A DNA stretch of 64,000 nt from Tumebacillus algifaecis. GTDB lineage: Bacteria > Bacillota > Bacilli > Tumebacillales > Tumebacillaceae. Both the position numbers and the translations under genes were made by a program. This document shows positions 53,210-64,000 of the stretch, piece after piece. The notes under the pieces were generated by a model. It was not told the DNA's origin. It saw only the letters and a program-made list of their open reading frames with translations, and made no database searches. Within the stretch, counting starts at the first letter, position 1. The number at the start of each line of letters is the position of its first letter. The stretch covers positions 2,037,001 to 2,101,000 of the forward strand of contig NZ_CP022657.1 in the NCBI RefSeq assembly GCF_002243515.1, read 5' to 3'.

Positions 53210-53286
53210 CGGAATATAGCGCAGCCTGGTAGCGCGCACCCTTGGGGTGGGTGAGGTCGTGGGTTCGAATCCCGCTATTCCGACCA
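53210..53286 (+). tRNA. tRNA-Pro (anticodon GGG)
   Basis: Acceptor CGGAATA / TATTCCG, anticodon stem CACCC/GGGTG with loop TTGGGGT (anticodon GGG), T arm GTGGGTTCGAATCCCGC, discriminator A and encoded CCA. Its 3' end is the likely anchor for the element whose recombinase gene starts 162 bp downstream. Confidence 0.96.
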
Positions 53287-53295
53287 TATTGTAAG

Positions 53296-53330
53296 AAAGC
53301 GTGTCGGGACTTGGTTCCGACACGTTTTTT
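53296..53330 (+). terminator. Terminator after tRNA-Pro
   Basis: CGTGTCGG / CCGACACG stem followed by TTTTTTT. Confidence 0.92.
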
Positions 53331-53448: not shown

Positions 53449-54276
53449 ATGGCGGACAAAAGAACTGGCAGACGAGTCAAGTTTGAGCGCAAGGTACAAT
53501 CGGTATCACTCGCATTAGTGGATTTGTTTCAGGTATTCTATGAGGCGAAGGTGGCGGAAGGCGTTTCAAAACGTACATTAGAGACGTACATGGAGAATTT
53601 TAGATTCTTGTGCAACTTTCTGGATATGAACCAGATTCCACACGATGTTACAGAAGTCACACCGGAGGTACTGAGAAGTTACCAAACATGGATGCTCACT
53701 ACAAAACAACGATTTGAAGGACATGATCACAAGTCGGAGAAGGAAAAGACGGTCGGTTTATCACCTGTTACGGTTAACACTCGCACGAAAACGTTGCGTG
53801 GCATGTTTCGTTTCTTGTGCAAAGAGGGGCTTATTGATCACGATCCTTGGACGAACGTAAAGAAGGCAGAAGAGGCACAATCGGAGATAAAAGTAATGAC
53901 GGTGGAACAGCTCAAAAAGTTGCTTCAGACGCCAAACCAGCGTAGTTATGCAGGCTTTCGCGACTATGTACTCATGAATGTTTTGATTGATGGCTTTTTG
54001 CGAATCAATGAGGCTGTTTCGTTACAAAAAGACGATATTGATTTTGATTTGGAAATGATCACAATACGAGCAGAAGTTGCAAAAACGAAACGATCAAGAA
54101 TGGTTCCGCTCCAACGAAATACAATAAAATTATTGAAAGAGCTAGTTCATGAAGGTGAAGAATTCGGAAACAGGTGTGTGTTTCTCACCAACTATGGTGA
54201 GCCGCTTAGTCCGAACCAATTCCGTCACCGTCTTAAGGAACATGCAAAAACAGCAGGGTTTGTGTTTCGCAACTGA
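53449..54276 (+). pseudogene. Tyrosine recombinase, N-terminal part, cut by IS21-family element
   Basis: ATG 53449 after AATAGGAGG. Residues 1-270 are recombinase; the last five codons (FVFRN) are read from the insertion element. The N-terminal SAM-like DNA-binding domain (about 22-125) has VSKRTLETYMENFRFLCNFL. The catalytic domain begins near MTVEQLKKLL and shows the first active-site Arg in GFLRINEAVSL and the Lys region AEVAKTKRSRMVPLQ. The HxxR, His and Tyr residues are on the other side of the IS (56698-56933). Integrases of this type sit at one end of elements integrated next to tRNA genes. Unless the IS is excised, the protein is inactive. Confidence 0.93.
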
Positions 54277-54328
54277 AAAGTGCAGAGTATCGCGGCCATT
54301 TTGTGCATAGCACCGCCAACATCGAAAT

Positions 54329-56553
<2,225 letters not shown>

Positions 56554-56697
56554 CCTCTCGATCCCCCTTGGTCGTCGCAAACCGTAGGGTAAGTTAGTAG
56601 ATCGATGTTGGCAAGTGCTTTTTTTATGCCAAAATGTCGCGGGCAAAGTCTGCACTTTTACGCCGCGACATTCTGCAATTTCATTATGCGATAAACA

Positions 56698-56933
56698 CAG
56701 GGTTAACAATTCGGGTGCATCCGCATTTGTTCCGCCATACTTCAGCCACACTTTTCCTCGAACAAGGTGGAGAGATTCGCCATCTTGCTAAAATCCTTGG
56801 ACATGCAGACCTAAGAATGGTGATGAGGTATACTCACTTGTCGAATAAGTCTATCAAGGTTCAGCATGAGAAATTTTCCCCGCTGAATCATATTGTTGGG
56901 AAATTGAATAAGGATCGTATCGTAACAAGGTGA
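56698..56933 (+). pseudogene. Tyrosine recombinase, C-terminal part
   Basis: Continues the recombinase after the IS. It has HPHLFRHTSA (HxxR plus following His), AKILGHADLRMV (His) and MRYTHLS (Tyr nucleophile). Joining position 54260 to 56705 keeps the frame and gives ...AKTAGLTIRVHPHL..., a protein of about 346 residues. No frameshift or stop exists in either half, so the insertion looks recent. Confidence 0.93.
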
Positions 56934-57099
56934 AAAGGAGCGGGTCGAATGACTCGCTTTTTATTTTGATATTTATAGTTATTTGTTTGGTTACTATTTA
57001 TTTTGATATTTGTAAAATTATTTTTACATATTCTAATTGTTATGATATGATACTTCTCATATCGCTCTTAACGGGGTTCAACTGCGAGGGGATGACAAC

Positions 57100-60081
57100 A
57101 TGACAAATCACAATCTATCCGAAATTGGGACGTTCCTGTACGATTTTCTCACTGCTTTTCATGGTGACCAAGCATTTGAAATTCGCTATGTACGTGAGAA
57201 AAATGGAACTGGTCAAAACTTCAGTATCATGCGATCAGGAAATTTTTTCTATGCGAACTCGACAGATGGAGGAAAGAGTATCATTGGGCATTTTTCTGCT
57301 GAAGGTATAATTGATCTTCTTCCCGATTTGTTTTTACGAACTGATTCCTTTCCCTGTTTTACGGTGAACTCACCTAATTTCGACAGAATGGATCGATGCG
57401 TCTCGACTGATGAAGACATTAGGAAAGGCGGTCGCATTCAGTGTCAATTTGTCGATATTGACGCACCAAAGAAATATAGAAACACCAAGGAAGTGTTAAT
57501 GAGATGGAAAAGGAAGACAGCTAAGAAGATACTGAGTTGTCCTGTATCACCATCTATTGTTGTTGAAACAAAACATGGCTACCATGTATACTGGCTTCTT
57601 AATGAGGCGGGAAACCTCAAAATGTACCGCCCAATACAACTTCAATTAATCCAATACTTCCAGAGTGATGAAAGCTGCATGAACGAATCAAAGGTCATGA
57701 GGTTGACTCGATTTCCTCACCGAAAAGACCCAAAAGACTCTTTTCTGGTCAGAGAAGTATTTTTTCATCCGCAAACTAGGTATTCACAACAGGAACTGCT
57801 GGACAGTTTTCCGCCTGTTACCGAAGAAAAACTCGTTAGGATTTTGAAGAAGCTGAGCCGAAGAAAGAGTAGTAAAATTGTAAGTACGACAAGGGATGCG
57901 ATTCTTAATCTCTTAGCGGAAAAATTGTCGGTTGTTCGTGATCTGGATGAAAAATTGATTTGCCATTGCTGTATGCCTGATCATGAAGACCGCAATCCTT
58001 CAGCTTGGTTCAACAAAAGTGTGTTATGGTATCATTGTTCGGGCTGTAACGTTCATTATTCAATTCGAGAACTTGCTTTGGAGCTTGATTGGGAAGATAT
58101 TATCGATGAACTTGAACAGAATGAGTTGGAAGTGTCCGAAGAGATCAGGAGGATCAATTCTCATAAGGTGAGTGCTGATGATCTGCTCAAGGACACACTG
58201 ACCAGACAAGATCTTGCCATAGCAGACAGTATCACGACTCAAGTTTTCGAATATTTCCGCGCTGTCCATCAAAAATTGACTGCCAAGCATGAACAATACG
58301 TATCTGATCTGATTCATGTACTTGTCGGATACAGGAACCACCAGAAGCCAGTTTTAGTCCCGCTCGATATGGGGGGAGGGAAGTCTACGATTATACGCTA
58401 CTTCCTTACGGAAATGGTGAAAAGCAGGGATGATTTCGGGGCTGTCGTCGCTGTTGAACGAGTAGAAACGGGTAACGACCTCATGCAAAAAATAAACTCG
58501 ATGGTCGGACGTGATGTCGCATTTGCGATGAGGGGATTCGATGTCATGGAGTGCAAACTGAACCAAGCGGATGGTTCAATGCTCTCAAGTTGTCTCGCTA
58601 GGTCAAAACCTTATCTATGCGAACATCGACTCAACTGTAGGTACTATCTGCAATTTGATGACCAGACGAAATATCCTATCGTGATTATCTCATTCAAAAG
58701 GCTTGAATTAGAATTAGGAAACTTTATCGGAAAATTCGGTAAGTTTAAACGTGAACATCTGCAATTCAGTAGGGATCTTTTACTCATTGATGAAAAGCCA
58801 CCAATGATCGGAGTACAAGAGATAACACAAACAGAGTACGAAAGGTGGCTTCAATATGCTCTGATCTTCTTTAACTCTGAGTATGCGACCGAACTGAATC
58901 GAGTCCTTCCGATTGTAACATCACTGTTCTCTCAAGAATTCCAACGCCGGGAGTTGATTCCCTCGCAAGATCAGGCGTTTTCGTTTTCGAATGATTTTTG
59001 GATGGCGTGGCGTAGAAATTTTTCATTTACCGATGACATTTTCAAACTTCCGAGATTCATCGAAAGTCTCATGAAAAATGGTGGTCACCTTTCCCTCCAT
59101 TCAGGTAGTCAGACGACAAAACTGACGACATCATGGAGTAACAAATTCAACATGGCCTCCGACATACAGACTGTCATCTTTGATGGAACAGCCGATCTTG
59201 ATCAGAGCTACAAACATGAAGAATATCACCTACTGGATTTTGGGAGTTTGAGAACTTACGAAGGGCTAGAGTTCCATATTTGTGATTTCATTAGTGGAAC
59301 TAAAACCGCTCTTACCGATGAGAAAATGGTAAAGGCTCTGTGTAGGGAAGTTGAAAGTATTGCTAATGAGAATCCCCGTGAACAGATTTTCTTTCCAGTG
59401 TTTAAAAAAATCGAGCCAGTCGTTGTGATGGAATTGGCAGACCTAATCGTGAGTGGCAGAGTGAAAGTCGCTCATTATGGAGAAACAAGGGGCAGCAATG
59501 ATTTTCGAGAGTGCAGCATTGTTGTAATTGGAGGAATTCTTCATAAGGGAGAAGACTATTATATCGCGAAAGCACGGTCAGTTTACGATGACCTTCAAGA
59601 AATTGAGGCAACGAACATAGGGAGGGTACGGAGATTTCATGATGACCGGATCGAGCAAGTTAAGATTCTGGACATGCTTGTTGATTATTCGCAAGAGATC
59701 AAACGTACTAGTCAGCGAGACAATTCGACGGAGGTAAAGGGGAAAGTGTTCGTTTTTCATACCGACAATACGCTTCTCAAACACATTGGGATCAAGTTTC
59801 CCAAAAGCCGAATGTATGCGTGGAGCCCAATGACGATTGTGGAAGAAAAGATCAAGTCAACATCGAATAATACGAATCAACAACGGCTGCTGGTTTATCT
59901 TCAAAATCGAAAAGCAGCGGGTGATCGGGAGATTTATTACGAGGAAATCAGAGATCATCTAAATCTAGATTCAAAAGCTCTGACGAAACTACTTGGTTCA
60001 GTTAAGATGGAAATGGTCATAGAGCCTAACTATCGAGTTGAAATTGAAGGTAAGAAGAAAAAATTAGTTGCCAAGTCGTAA
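57100..60081 (+). CDS. Primase-zinc finger-helicase fusion protein
   Basis: 993 residues; ATG 57100 follows GCGAGGGGATG. Residues about 80-240 resemble an archaeo-eukaryotic primase/RepB-like primase: FVDIDA (Asp 119, Asp 121), GYHVYW (His 162) and VMRLTRFPHRK (Arg 201). Residues 288-316 form a CHC2-like zinc finger (CHCCMPDHEDRNPS ... CSGC). Residues about 405-850 look like a superfamily 2 helicase: Walker A DMGGGKST (423-430), Walker B LLLIDEKPP (560-568), FDGTAD (694-699), HYGETRGSN (792-800) and NIGRVRR (839-845). Between Walker A and B lie Cys 485, 498, 507 and 513, followed by KYPIVIISFKRL, the layout of XPD/DinG iron-sulfur helicases. The C-terminus may be a winged helix. Likely the replication protein of the integrated element, though a defence role is possible. 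Domain calls are by motif only. AT-rich codon use differs from the core genes. Confidence 0.8.
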   Translation: MTNHNLSEIGTFLYDFLTAFHGDQAFEIRYVREKNGTGQNFSIMRSGNFFYANSTDGGKSIIGHFSAEGIIDLLPDLFLRTDSFPCFTVNSPNFDRMDRCVSTDEDIRKGGRIQCQFVDIDAPKKYRNTKEVLMRWKRKTAKKILSCPVSPSIVVETKHGYHVYWLLNEAGNLKMYRPIQLQLIQYFQSDESCMNESKVMRLTRFPHRKDPKDSFLVREVFFHPQTRYSQQELLDSFPPVTEEKLVRILKKLSRRKSSKIVSTTRDAILNLLAEKLSVVRDLDEKLICHCCMPDHEDRNPSAWFNKSVLWYHCSGCNVHYSIRELALELDWEDIIDELEQNELEVSEEIRRINSHKVSADDLLKDTLTRQDLAIADSITTQVFEYFRAVHQKLTAKHEQYVSDLIHVLVGYRNHQKPVLVPLDMGGGKSTIIRYFLTEMVKSRDDFGAVVAVERVETGNDLMQKINSMVGRDVAFAMRGFDVMECKLNQADGSMLSSCLARSKPYLCEHRLNCRYYLQFDDQTKYPIVIISFKRLELELGNFIGKFGKFKREHLQFSRDLLLIDEKPPMIGVQEITQTEYERWLQYALIFFNSEYATELNRVLPIVTSLFSQEFQRRELIPSQDQAFSFSNDFWMAWRRNFSFTDDIFKLPRFIESLMKNGGHLSLHSGSQTTKLTTSWSNKFNMASDIQTVIFDGTADLDQSYKHEEYHLLDFGSLRTYEGLEFHICDFISGTKTALTDEKMVKALCREVESIANENPREQIFFPVFKKIEPVVVMELADLIVSGRVKVAHYGETRGSNDFRECSIVVIGGILHKGEDYYIAKARSVYDDLQEIEATNIGRVRRFHDDRIEQVKILDMLVDYSQEIKRTSQRDNSTEVKGKVFVFHTDNTLLKHIGIKFPKSRMYAWSPMTIVEEKIKSTSNNTNQQRLLVYLQNRKAAGDREIYYEEIRDHLNLDSKALTKLLGSVKMEMVIEPNYRVEIEGKKKKLVAKS

Positions 60082-60153: not shown

Positions 60154-60378
60154 ATAGCATTTCTTTTATGCAGTTGATTTCGAATATAGTAGCCTATGGG
60201 AATGGTTATGCCAATCCCTAATTATGTTTCTGTCGGTGAAATTAGCAAAATCACTTGATGAATTTTTCTCGGAGATACAATCTAAAATGTCTTTCTAATT
60301 TAACATTATTGAAGCGTGCTGTGATAAAATGTCGAAAATAGGCTATGTTTGATAATAATTGAGGTGGTGTTGATAGGT

Positions 60379-61086
60379 ATGGTTCAGCCAAGAAGATGGA
60401 TCGACGAATTATTGGATGTTTTTCATGAATTGGATGGAATAGCTCATTATAAACAAGTGTATGAAACTATTCGGATTAGGGGAGTTATGGATTTAACTTC
60501 TAACACCAATTGGCAGGCTGCTGTAAGGCGAACTGTTGAACAATATTCGAGCGATTCTGAGGCTTTTTTGAACAAGGAAGATTTTTTCTACACAGTTAAG
60601 GGGAAAGGAAAAGGGGTCTGGGGACTTAGAGAGATATTACAAGCTGATGAAAAACGACTTGTCTCAAAATTAACGAACGAAATTACCGAAACAGAGATAG
60701 AGAACATTTTTGAAGCTGACGACGAGTTGGTAAAAAAAATATTGTCACGAATTAATACGATTGCGAGTATTGAGGAGAGACAAGTCATAATAAAAGCGCG
60801 AAAAGCAAGTCGAGCAGTTATCTCAAAGTTAAAACAGTTATACGATCATTCTTGTCAGTTATGCAGATCCAATCATAACAGTAGGTATGGAGTAAATGTT
60901 GTTGAGGCACATCATATTGAGCATTTCTCAATTTCTCAAAATCACCATCCTTCGAATCTCGTAATACTTTGTCCAACACACCATCGGCTGGTTCATGCTG
61001 GTAAAGCTACTTACCTAAGAGATCGGCAATTGTTTGTATATGAAAATGGGTATGAGGAGACGTTGAAACTTAACAAACACCTGTAG
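60379..61086 (+). CDS. HNH endonuclease with probable winged-helix N-terminus
   Basis: 235 residues from ATG 60379 (GAGGTGGTG 9 nt upstream). The N-terminal 85 residues (IAHYKQVYETIRIRG, NWQAAVRRTVEQYSSDSEAF, GKGVWGLRE) read like a winged-helix DNA-binding domain often attached to nucleases. The C-terminal part is an HNH nuclease: CQLC (159-162), EAHHIEHF (His 178/179), the central Asn in HHPSNLVILC and CPTHHRLVH. The protein may be a restriction-like or homing-type nuclease. It lies between the primase-helicase and the restriction-modification genes; no matching methyltransferase is adjacent on its strand. Confidence 0.85.
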   Translation: MVQPRRWIDELLDVFHELDGIAHYKQVYETIRIRGVMDLTSNTNWQAAVRRTVEQYSSDSEAFLNKEDFFYTVKGKGKGVWGLREILQADEKRLVSKLTNEITETEIENIFEADDELVKKILSRINTIASIEERQVIIKARKASRAVISKLKQLYDHSCQLCRSNHNSRYGVNVVEAHHIEHFSISQNHHPSNLVILCPTHHRLVHAGKATYLRDRQLFVYENGYEETLKLNKHL

Positions 61087-61500: not shown

Positions 61501-62217
61501 TTAGGAAGTTTGGTGAGCGATAATATGACCCACTAATGACCTTATGAGCAGTTCAATAGAAAGCTCTTCATTTGGTGTACGATAATCACCGAGCTTTTTA
61601 GTATCTGCAATGATGAGAGCACATTTGTCATATAATTGTTCTTGTACCATTTTCATCATAAATAATTCTGCTCGTTCCTCATAATTTGCTGGTTGTTGAG
61701 TACGGGGGAATTTTGTGTACTCATCCAGGGGACGGAATAGCATATTTCCACGCCGTTCCGTCCCCTTTTTGTTAGCCGGATGATCAGTCATTACGTAAAT
61801 GTAACCTAAAAAAGGGCGTGAAGCACCAAAGGCTCCGTGCTCAAATGCCTTCCACAAATCGTAACTACTTCCTACAGCTTCTTCGGATCGATTATTAAGA
61901 TTGTTACCGACAGAACCATGCATAGACTTAAACTCAATGACTGCAAGCAGACGTCTTGTACCGTCCTGTAAGTTCTTTAACACAATCATATCCCAGTCTT
62001 TTGACATCCGGAAATAGCCGGGTAATTTTGCCGAGCGACCGAAAATAATCTCTGTTTCGTGAACACCATTCTTCAGCAGAACGTCCATTAGGACATTGGC
62101 GAAGCCATCCATAGTTTTGCCGTCTAGCACTCCGTTGCTTCTGACCCCCCAAAAGTTCATAAGTGCGTATTGGGTTATATGTTTTATTTCATCATTTGAT
62201 GGCATCCACATGTTCAT
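61501..62217 (-). CDS. Type II restriction endonuclease, PaeR7I/XhoI family
   Basis: 238 residues; ATG 62217 after AAAGGGGCGTC. Matches the PaeR7I family as I know it along most of its length: TMDGFANVL, LPGYFRMSKDWDMIVL, AVIEFKSMHGSVGNNLNNRS, EEAVGSSYDLWKAFEHGAFG and RPFLGYIYV. The PD-(D/E)xK core is Asp 76 ... Glu 95-x-Lys 97. PaeR7I and XhoI cut CTCGAG, so that is the expected target. It lies 27 bp downstream of the methyltransferase gene on the same strand. Confidence 0.9.
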   Translation of the reverse strand: MNMWMPSNDEIKHITQYALMNFWGVRSNGVLDGKTMDGFANVLMDVLLKNGVHETEIIFGRSAKLPGYFRMSKDWDMIVLKNLQDGTRRLLAVIEFKSMHGSVGNNLNNRSEEAVGSSYDLWKAFEHGAFGASRPFLGYIYVMTDHPANKKGTERRGNMLFRPLDEYTKFPRTQQPANYEERAELFMMKMVQEQLYDKCALIIADTKKLGDYRTPNEELSIELLIRSLVGHIIAHQTS

Positions 62218-62244: not shown

Positions 62245-63930
62245 TTAGTTCACAAGATCTCGAATATCATTCATTTCATCATCCGTGAGTGAGTATAACT
62301 TCTGTGCTAACTTTTCAATACCTTCTAAGTTACCAGAGTGATAATACATTTTCAAAAGATCTATTTCATCAATGCTTATATCAGTTGGTAGCCGTATTTT
62401 TTTCAGGTACTGAGCCTGATATCGTAGGTAATCTCCTCGCATCTTTGTTGCATAAGACCAAATAAAGAATTTCACAATCGAGCACGACAATAACGCTTGC
62501 AAAGCCTGAATATCCCACGAACCGGCGGTGAGGTAATACAAACTATGCTCAGGGTAATATTGTCCGCTGTCCAAAACAACAAGGTTTTTAGATTTAATGT
62601 CAGGGATGAGAAGTTTCGGTATTGAAAGACGTTCAGGATAGATTCGATCAATAGTCTTATACCATTTAGATGGGGAGTTCTTGGCAGTGCTGCGTGCTTT
62701 TAAACGCTCTTGGTGCATATTAAGGTACTTCATTAGCTTCGGGTATTTTTCGAGATCGACTAAACTTCCGTCGTTCTTATAGGGGTTAATGACATATTTT
62801 CCGCTCCAATCTACTTGTCCAGTTTTGATATCGTCTTTTGTTACAATTGGAAGGAGGATATCAGACTCTAGATCGACCTCATTTGGCTTAACTAGGTAGA
62901 TATCGTTTGCCCCAGTTGCAACTCCAATCCCGACATGAATATTATGTGGAGCTTCAGTAATTAAGGGATACGACTGCTCAATTTTGTGTAATAATTCCCG
63001 TGCGCGCTCACCGTTAAGAACCCATGGATCTGAACCTATGAACCAATTTTTTAAGGTGTGTGAAGAAAAGTCTTGATCAACAATTTCTTCACCTTTAAGA
63101 AGATAACTTCGGGCATTTTCTAATTGCTTGGCTGAAAGTGCATTGAGTTTGAGGGTTCTAGATATTCCTTCTGAACCTTTCTGTAAGGTAAAAATACATG
63201 GGTACGCGGAAACTTGATCGACAAAAGGTTGGGTATTATGGATATCAACAAAATGGACAACATGATAGTTCCCATTAATATACCTTCGGATTTCTTTGCC
63301 ATATCGATTCTTTGTAAAACGGTCGGTACAGATGTAACTCAAAACCCCTTTGTTTGATAGCATTTCAAGTCCGTGTTCAATGAACGCAATATAGATATCC
63401 GCTCTATCGTACAGTGTTGGGTACACACGGCGATAGTGCTTATCGTCGATATTGTTTAGATTCTCGATTCGAATGTATGGGGGGTTCCCAACAACAAAGT
63501 CGAATGTTTGAACTACAGGTTTGTTCCAACGGAGGAAGTCTGTACTAATTAACCATTGGTCGAGCAAGCGAGTAATCAGTGTTTGGGGAATGTTGTACTT
63601 GTTCAGTGTCTCAAAAATGTTTTTACGCAACTTTTCGTACTTAAGGGAATCGACTTCGATAGAACATATTGCATTCCTTAGTAAGTGAAAGGAATAGTCC
63701 TGATTCGAAAAAAGCGTGTTCACAACATGGTATCTCTTATACGATTCAATTAGGCGTTCAACGACTTGTACAAGGAAAGCCCCCTCTCCAGTAGCTGGTT
63801 CTAACAATGAATATTCAAAGAGGGGTTTTTCTGACGTATAACCTAAAATGTCGAGAATTAGCGAAACAATTTCAGGTTTTGTATAGTACGAACCGCTACG
63901 TTTCTTTTGGTCTAATTCAATCATAGTCAT
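62245..63930 (-). CDS. N6-adenine DNA methyltransferase of the restriction-modification pair
   Basis: 561 residues from ATG 63930 (GGAGAGG upstream; an ATG at 63957 would add nine residues with a poorer site). SAM-binding motif I is LLEPATGEGAFL (42-53) and the catalytic NPPY is at 149-152, order as in gamma-class adenine methylases (Eco57I-like/PaeR7I-type). The C-terminal half (about 330-561) is a target-recognition region. It should protect CTCGAG sites by methylating the adenine if the paired enzyme is PaeR7I-like. It is transcribed first, then the endonuclease. Confidence 0.92.
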   Translation of the reverse strand: MTMIELDQKKRSGSYYTKPEIVSLILDILGYTSEKPLFEYSLLEPATGEGAFLVQVVERLIESYKRYHVVNTLFSNQDYSFHLLRNAICSIEVDSLKYEKLRKNIFETLNKYNIPQTLITRLLDQWLISTDFLRWNKPVVQTFDFVVGNPPYIRIENLNNIDDKHYRRVYPTLYDRADIYIAFIEHGLEMLSNKGVLSYICTDRFTKNRYGKEIRRYINGNYHVVHFVDIHNTQPFVDQVSAYPCIFTLQKGSEGISRTLKLNALSAKQLENARSYLLKGEEIVDQDFSSHTLKNWFIGSDPWVLNGERARELLHKIEQSYPLITEAPHNIHVGIGVATGANDIYLVKPNEVDLESDILLPIVTKDDIKTGQVDWSGKYVINPYKNDGSLVDLEKYPKLMKYLNMHQERLKARSTAKNSPSKWYKTIDRIYPERLSIPKLLIPDIKSKNLVVLDSGQYYPEHSLYYLTAGSWDIQALQALLSCSIVKFFIWSYATKMRGDYLRYQAQYLKKIRLPTDISIDEIDLLKMYYHSGNLEGIEKLAQKLYSLTDDEMNDIRDLVN

Positions 63931-64000
63931 ATCCTCTCCATTTATAGGTCTGAACATAGCTCTGGGTAGTAGTTAACGCAATGGATAGCATATCAGAACG
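63931..64000. other. Right window edge, upstream region of the methyltransferase
   Basis: Only 70 bp remain; they hold the ribosome binding site region of the minus-strand methyltransferase and no other recognisable feature. The second end of the integrated element is not in view. Confidence 0.5.

Follow-up and report, generated by a model that had tools for sequence, protein, structure and literature searches.

An integrative element at a tRNA-Pro gene

The stretch of DNA analysed here, referred to below as the window, comprises 64,000 nucleotides of Tumebacillus algifaecis (RefSeq assembly GCF_002243515.1, contig NZ_CP022657.1, positions 2,037,001 to 2,101,000 of the forward strand) and holds, towards its right-hand end, part of an integrative element with the following features, those beyond the window being given in extended window coordinates.

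53210-53286, + strand: tRNA-Pro(ggg), the integration site
53213-53312, + strand: attL, a 100-bp exact direct repeat (other copy outside the window, 71656-71755)
53449-54276, + strand: N-terminal part of a tyrosine integrase, its gene broken by IS21 (PF00589, 1.1e-19; 75% identical to the intact integrase of a sister element)
54261-56704, - strand: IS21-family element (istB 54329-55057, istA ORF 55054-56751), with the 7-bp sequence CAGGGTT at 54254-54260 and 56698-56704
56634-56933, + strand: ORF with the C-terminal portion of the interrupted integrase
57100-60081, + strand: AEP-CHC2-SF2 helicase-WH fusion protein P0001, 993 aa (intact ORF, full-length homologues)
60349-61086, + strand: HNH endonuclease-like cargo gene
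61501-62217, - strand: XhoI-type restriction endonuclease, cargo (PF04555, 1.7e-41)
62245-63957, - strand: N6-adenine methyltransferase of the restriction-modification (R-M) pair, cargo (PF07669, 8.8e-25; PADLOC type II MTase, 3e-181)
64452-67228, outside the window (L051 12452-15228): two XRE-TPR regulators with relatives in sister elements
68020-68517, outside the window: second recombinase fragment

A complete tRNA-Pro(ggg) gene stands at either end of the element, the second at 71653-71729 outside the window, and from the positions of the two 100-bp repeats the element is therefore 18.44 kb long. A genome of the same genus has the site unoccupied, with left flank, tRNA and right flank uninterrupted (80% identity over query positions 10-405). 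The initial annotation had supposed an integrated element, and the att repeats, tRNA-Pro gene, integrase and unoccupied site bear this out, with the fusion gene lying next to the integrase gene in the same element. The repeat spans nearly the whole tRNA gene, not its 3' end only. Among the element proteins searched, no further one was recognised as acting in replication, and the origin search within the element identified no origin, returning nothing besides an imperfect 21-nt direct repeat (56957-57014) in the AT-rich stretch immediately before the fusion gene, a possible origin or operator. The XRE-TPR regulators raise the possibility of signalling-type control of the element.

The integrase gene is split by the IS21 element, and excision by the element's own integrase is therefore improbable. 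This break is what speaks for P0001 being a remnant in an element possibly no longer active, a reading that we regard as very improbable against an intact 993-codon frame with conserved motif residues and against the CAGGGTT repeats at the IS ends, which look like the IS21 target duplication and whose exactness suggests that the insertion is recent.

Domain architecture and conservation of the fusion protein

The reading frame, its length and its residue numbering are as initially annotated. Its recognisable parts, all on the + strand, are these:

57337-57834: AEP/PrimPol catalytic domain, residues ~80-245 (D119, D121, H162, D190, R201), from profile matches and conservation
57907-58089: CHC2 (DnaG-type) zinc finger, residues ~270-330 (C290, H295, C313, C316), from profile matches and invariant residues
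58366-58389: Walker A DMGGGKST, residues 423-430, from the alignment of fusions
58552-58638: four-cysteine cluster C485, C498, C507, C513, a putative FeS site, conserved in nine members
58777-58800: Walker B LLLIDEKP, residues 560-567, from the alignment of fusions
59248-59835: second RecA-like domain, residues 717-912, including Q865/R869/R873 (pLDDT up to 84 in blocks; fold matches)
59872-60069: probable C-terminal winged helix, residues ~925-990 (helix/strand order in the model, pLDDT 51-81)

The primase-like blocks of the initial annotation form an AEP domain, whose family profile (A1) matches the solved PrimPol AEP domain 6zp9 (E 1.7e-7) and in which the Pfam domain RepB_primase is found in three of six family members (best 3.7e-9). 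The CHC2-like finger is likewise confirmed, the profile PF01807 being found in four of the six (best 1.6e-5) and the region matching DnaG primase 2au3 in a profile search (E 2.5e-4), with ligands invariant in the fusions. For P0001 alone, the RepB_primase and CHC2 scores fall below the Pfam cut-offs (PF01807, E 0.005), and weak nSTAND3 and ResIII matches were given no weight. The finger ligands are C-H-C-C, with H-x17-C-x2-C preceded by C-x4-H in P0001 as against C-x2-H in L005-L008. AEP motif II reads GYH (160-162), with Lys replacing His in L006 and L007; D190 is the third catalytic Asp, and R201 of motif IV is invariant and followed by Leu or Val. The initial annotation had also followed helicase motifs as far as NIGRVRR (residues 839-845, with R845 invariant in the first alignment); the motor stands, with Q865-x3-R869-x3-R873 the better position for its conserved Arg-finger motif VI. 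Beyond it, the modelled order of helices and strands indicates that residues ~925-990 probably fold as a winged helix.

Seven such fusions occur in Bacillota, the homologues being 22-42% identical to the window protein. An alignment of six full-length ones leaves invariant D119, D121, G160, D190 and R201 of AEP motifs I-IV, C290, H295, C313 and C316 of the finger, G425, G427 and K428 of Walker A and D564 and E565 of Walker B, and the seventh, L053, retains the AEP, finger and Walker A/B residues invariant in these six. The catalytic AEP residues, CHC2 ligands, Walker A/B and the four cysteines are thus kept in 7/7 fusions, including the cysteines and the Asp pair whose absence from homologues the initial annotation had regarded as telling against its proposal. 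Judged by sequence comparison, P0001 is a member of a real protein family. In every one of the seven fusions, as well as in the two helicase-only relatives L020 and L054, the cysteines singled out initially (485, 498, 507, 513) recur between Walker A and Walker B, spaced C-x(11-13)-C-x(2-8)-C-x(3-5)-C, a conservation far beyond chance for proteins that share only 22-42% identity with that of the window. The cluster is missing from the more distant stand-alone relatives L009, L066 and L132-L134; among DinG-like proteins, too, the cluster has been lost in some branches (PMC11981726). The family is infrequent, a near full-length match being present in 5 of 399 sampled Bacilli genomes. Scans of IMG/VR with the alignments A1, A4, A7, A8 and A9 and with the L020 protein gave no further helicase relative besides L020, tblastn of the helicase-only relatives against 50,697 phage records gave no match, and the listed matches of the whole protein to plasmids and phages fall in its AEP/CHC2 part.

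The helicase motor and its kinship

The helicase recognised initially is an SF2 motor, as indicated by its conserved Walker A and B motifs, by the match of L053 to Pfam ResIII above the cut-off (33.4 vs 22.5 bits) and by the second RecA domain, which is predicted better than the rest of the motor and matches XPD 3crv (Z 10.1) and T4 UvsW (Z 10.0) about equally. Within SF2, the position of the cysteines, the layout of the motor and the top fold matches suggest kinship to XPD/DinG. The four cysteines sit between motifs I and II, a criterion of that group, in the seven fusions, L020 and L054; motifs II and III, between which that group has an arch insertion, are separated by about 125 residues (568-693), mostly helical in a prediction of very low confidence; and the best three Foldseek matches in the PDB are XPD 5h8w, DinG 6fws and Staphylococcus aureus DinG 9ii8, the top XPD/DinG E values being 1.2e-3 and 1.8e-2 from a model of mean pLDDT 48.7. 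Both AlphaFold2 models, from full-length and helicase-only runs, were poor (mean pLDDT 48.7 and 40.1), the helicase part resting on three sequences and the cysteine region being modelled at very low confidence. A divergent family member, L136 (E 2.8e-10 to the A4 profile), has DEAD_2 as its sole Pfam match, over the stretch from the cysteines to Walker B (E 0.084).

The initial description of a DinG-like helicase thus holds for the layout and the fold matches and is weakened by the poor model, the Pfam result and a differently spaced motif VI. In an hmmscan of P0001, neither DEAD_2 (PF06733) nor Helicase_C_2 (PF13307) matched, and the latter profile detects the DinG of the host while missing P0001. 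Profile-profile comparison with DinG scored 32.5, above the column-shuffle maximum of 23.8, while shuffles in blocks of eight reach 36.1. Because of the low pLDDT, the silence of PF13307, the motif VI sequence QEIKRTSQR and this equivocal score, P0001 is not filed here as a member of DinG.

This SF2 helicase probably works in the manner of the iron-sulfur group. The four cysteines could instead form a structural zinc site in an SF2 helicase of another group, with no iron-sulfur helicase involved: zinc fingers can likewise contain CCCC and CCHC motifs, a point made for DinG-like proteins (PMC11981726), C-x2-C pairs are present in L005-L008 and L054, and the DinG profile finds no match. We consider the zinc site unlikely, in view of the match to the XPD/DinG layout (cysteines between motifs I and II, a putative insertion between II and III, a C-x5-C ending) and of XPD and DinG being the top fold matches.

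Relatives in context and slot exchange

A survey of neighbourhoods for integrases, as proposed initially, found a recombinase beside every fusion with enough context, so that 6/6, the window included, stand in integrative settings; the fusion L005 was left out of this count, its contig being too short. Those of L001, L053, L057 and L058 adjoin tyrosine recombinases and that of L056 a serine recombinase (in several cases identified by reading the sequence); L057 sits at a tmRNA, L058 beside a cluster of tRNAs. The same tRNA-Pro site in a genome of the same family (L131, G117:C5:4000-21000) is occupied by a sister element of ~12.7 kb, whose integrase (75% identity) and XRE-TPR regulator (66%) correspond in sequence and order to those of the window element, and which replaces the fusion with a distant stand-alone helicase relative broken by one TGA stop. 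Intact stand-alone copies, devoid of the cysteine cluster, adjoin related integrases in L132-L134. Since the sister element has a stand-alone helicase where the fusion stands, the slot is a replication-type module whose constant component is the motor, the primase being added.

The helicase relative L020 lies in a phage contig that also encodes terminase- and portal-like proteins (by reading), directly preceded by an RdRP-like gene (PF05183, E 1.9e-8; L020 271-3516), perhaps like YonO of SPbeta-like phages. The helicase-only L054, which has the four cysteines, lies near brxL- and pglZ-like genes of BREX (L054 7150-15429; by eye, no search).

A probable replication initiator

The initial annotation had offered two roles for P0001, initiator or defence enzyme. 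The mobile setting, the equivalence of the slot and the lack of another recognised replication gene make the first plausible, and we consider it likely that P0001 is the replication initiator of the integrative element, acting as primase and helicase, with the iron-sulfur motor included in the proposal. For such a protein we infer an iron-sulfur cofactor, unwinding and priming. The integrase would first excise the element, whose origin would then be bound by the C-terminal winged helix. A 4Fe-4S cluster held by the four conserved cysteines would stabilise the SF2 motor, which would open and unwind the DNA, 5'-3' by analogy with XPD/DinG; priming of the exposed strand would fall to the AEP domain and its CHC2 finger, with the host DNA polymerase extending the primers. 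A 5'-3' motor would travel on the lagging-strand template, which would give the tethered primase a position like that in T7 gp4 or DnaB-DnaG.

Defence is the main rival because of Thermus ICETh2, in which deletion of a similar element-borne PrimPol left element replication unimpaired and defence against foreign DNA was proposed (PMC7693054). P0001 would by analogy be a defence or interference enzyme acting on invading or damaged DNA and not in element replication, a role consonant with the XhoI-type R-M and HNH cargo beside the fusion gene and with the BREX-like neighbours of L054. Yet PADLOC gives no match to the fusion outside its CHC2 part, the fusions adjoin recombinases while their cargo is varied, the sister-element slot has a helicase without R-M genes, and the relative L020 is encoded in a phage contig; we therefore hold a defence role to be improbable and initiation the better account of P0001.

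Novelty and comparison with known systems

Contrary to the initial annotation, a CHC2 finger beside an AEP domain is not unusual: the pairing is common in phage and prophage proteins of Bacillota, and Zn-binding domains beside PrimPol have been described (PMC5512222, PMC5862659). The new part of the fusion is the joining of AEP-CHC2 to an iron-sulfur-type SF2 motor. In the open-licence literature we found no description of DinG, XPD or Rad3 fused to an AEP or other primase, although an older account of a related fusion may exist, nor any instance of an XPD-type iron-sulfur motor serving as the replicative helicase of a mobile element; such helicases in the literature examined are of SF3/D5, AAA+, DnaB/RepA, MCM or remote SF2 types. 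We propose, tentatively and at somewhat less than even odds, that AEP primases covalently joined to an XPD-type 4Fe-4S helicase constitute a bacterial family of mobile-element initiators, in which a repair-type motor would have been recruited as replicative helicase, the primase would be carried on the lagging-strand template and element replication might be redox- or iron-sensitive. If confirmed, the fusion would offer a single polypeptide in which to test the coupling of a primase to an FeS motor, the capacity of such motors to initiate replication and a possible gating of a mobile element by cellular redox state. Sister elements that have a stand-alone helicase at the same integration site provide a natural comparison from which the contribution of the fused primase could be read.

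Among described systems, the PrimPol-PV1/All3500-like proteins (Kazlauskas et al., 2018; PMC5862659) share an AEP with a motif II His and a motif IV Arg fused to helicases, can have Zn-binding and C-terminal winged-helix domains, and are, like the fusion, encoded almost solely in integrated mobile elements. The fusion is here called a variant of the PrimPol-PV1 replication proteins on the basis of motifs I-IV and mobile setting, the fusions having the acidic pair of motif I, the His of motif II save for the Lys of L006 and L007, the Asp of motif III, the Arg of motif IV and a location in mobile elements. In one PrimPol-PV1 subgroup the C-terminal domains bear a remote resemblance to SF2, but these are tied to pVOG1685/9714 (T4-like phages, SPbeta; UL9-like), and no significant relative was detected in the SPbeta-like phage phi3T; that account mentions Zn-binding domains, but neither DinG helicase nor iron nor the word zinc. 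With XPD/DinG (XPD 5h8w, Escherichia coli DinG 6fws; PMC11981726) the fusion shares two RecA domains, the four cysteines between motifs I and II and a putative insertion between II and III, whereas its motif VI departs from QxxGRxxR; the word primase is absent from that review.

AEP-CHC2 primases of Bacillota phages and prophages (L060-L065, L068, L071, L074) share the N-terminal AEP and CHC2 part, where they are 21-30% identical, but are without a helicase domain, the intact ones having ~590-690 aa. CRISPR-associated Prim-Pols (PMC8211822) include the closest solved AEP, 6zp9, and some of their relatives are helicase-fused and in mobile elements; they differ in being linked to cas1/cas2, and an FeS motor is not mentioned in the parts of that source consulted. 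The SCCmec proteins Cch2/CCPol-MP (PMC7581432) likewise form a mobile-element replication module with an initiator helicase and primase activity, but with a helicase of another family carrying a D5-type domain, 3'-5' polarity and a separate primase derived from an A-family polymerase. The four-in-one replicase GP55 of phage 1706 (PMC12205980) also unites AEP and helicase in one phage-encoded chain, differing in its SF3 helicase and family B polymerase.
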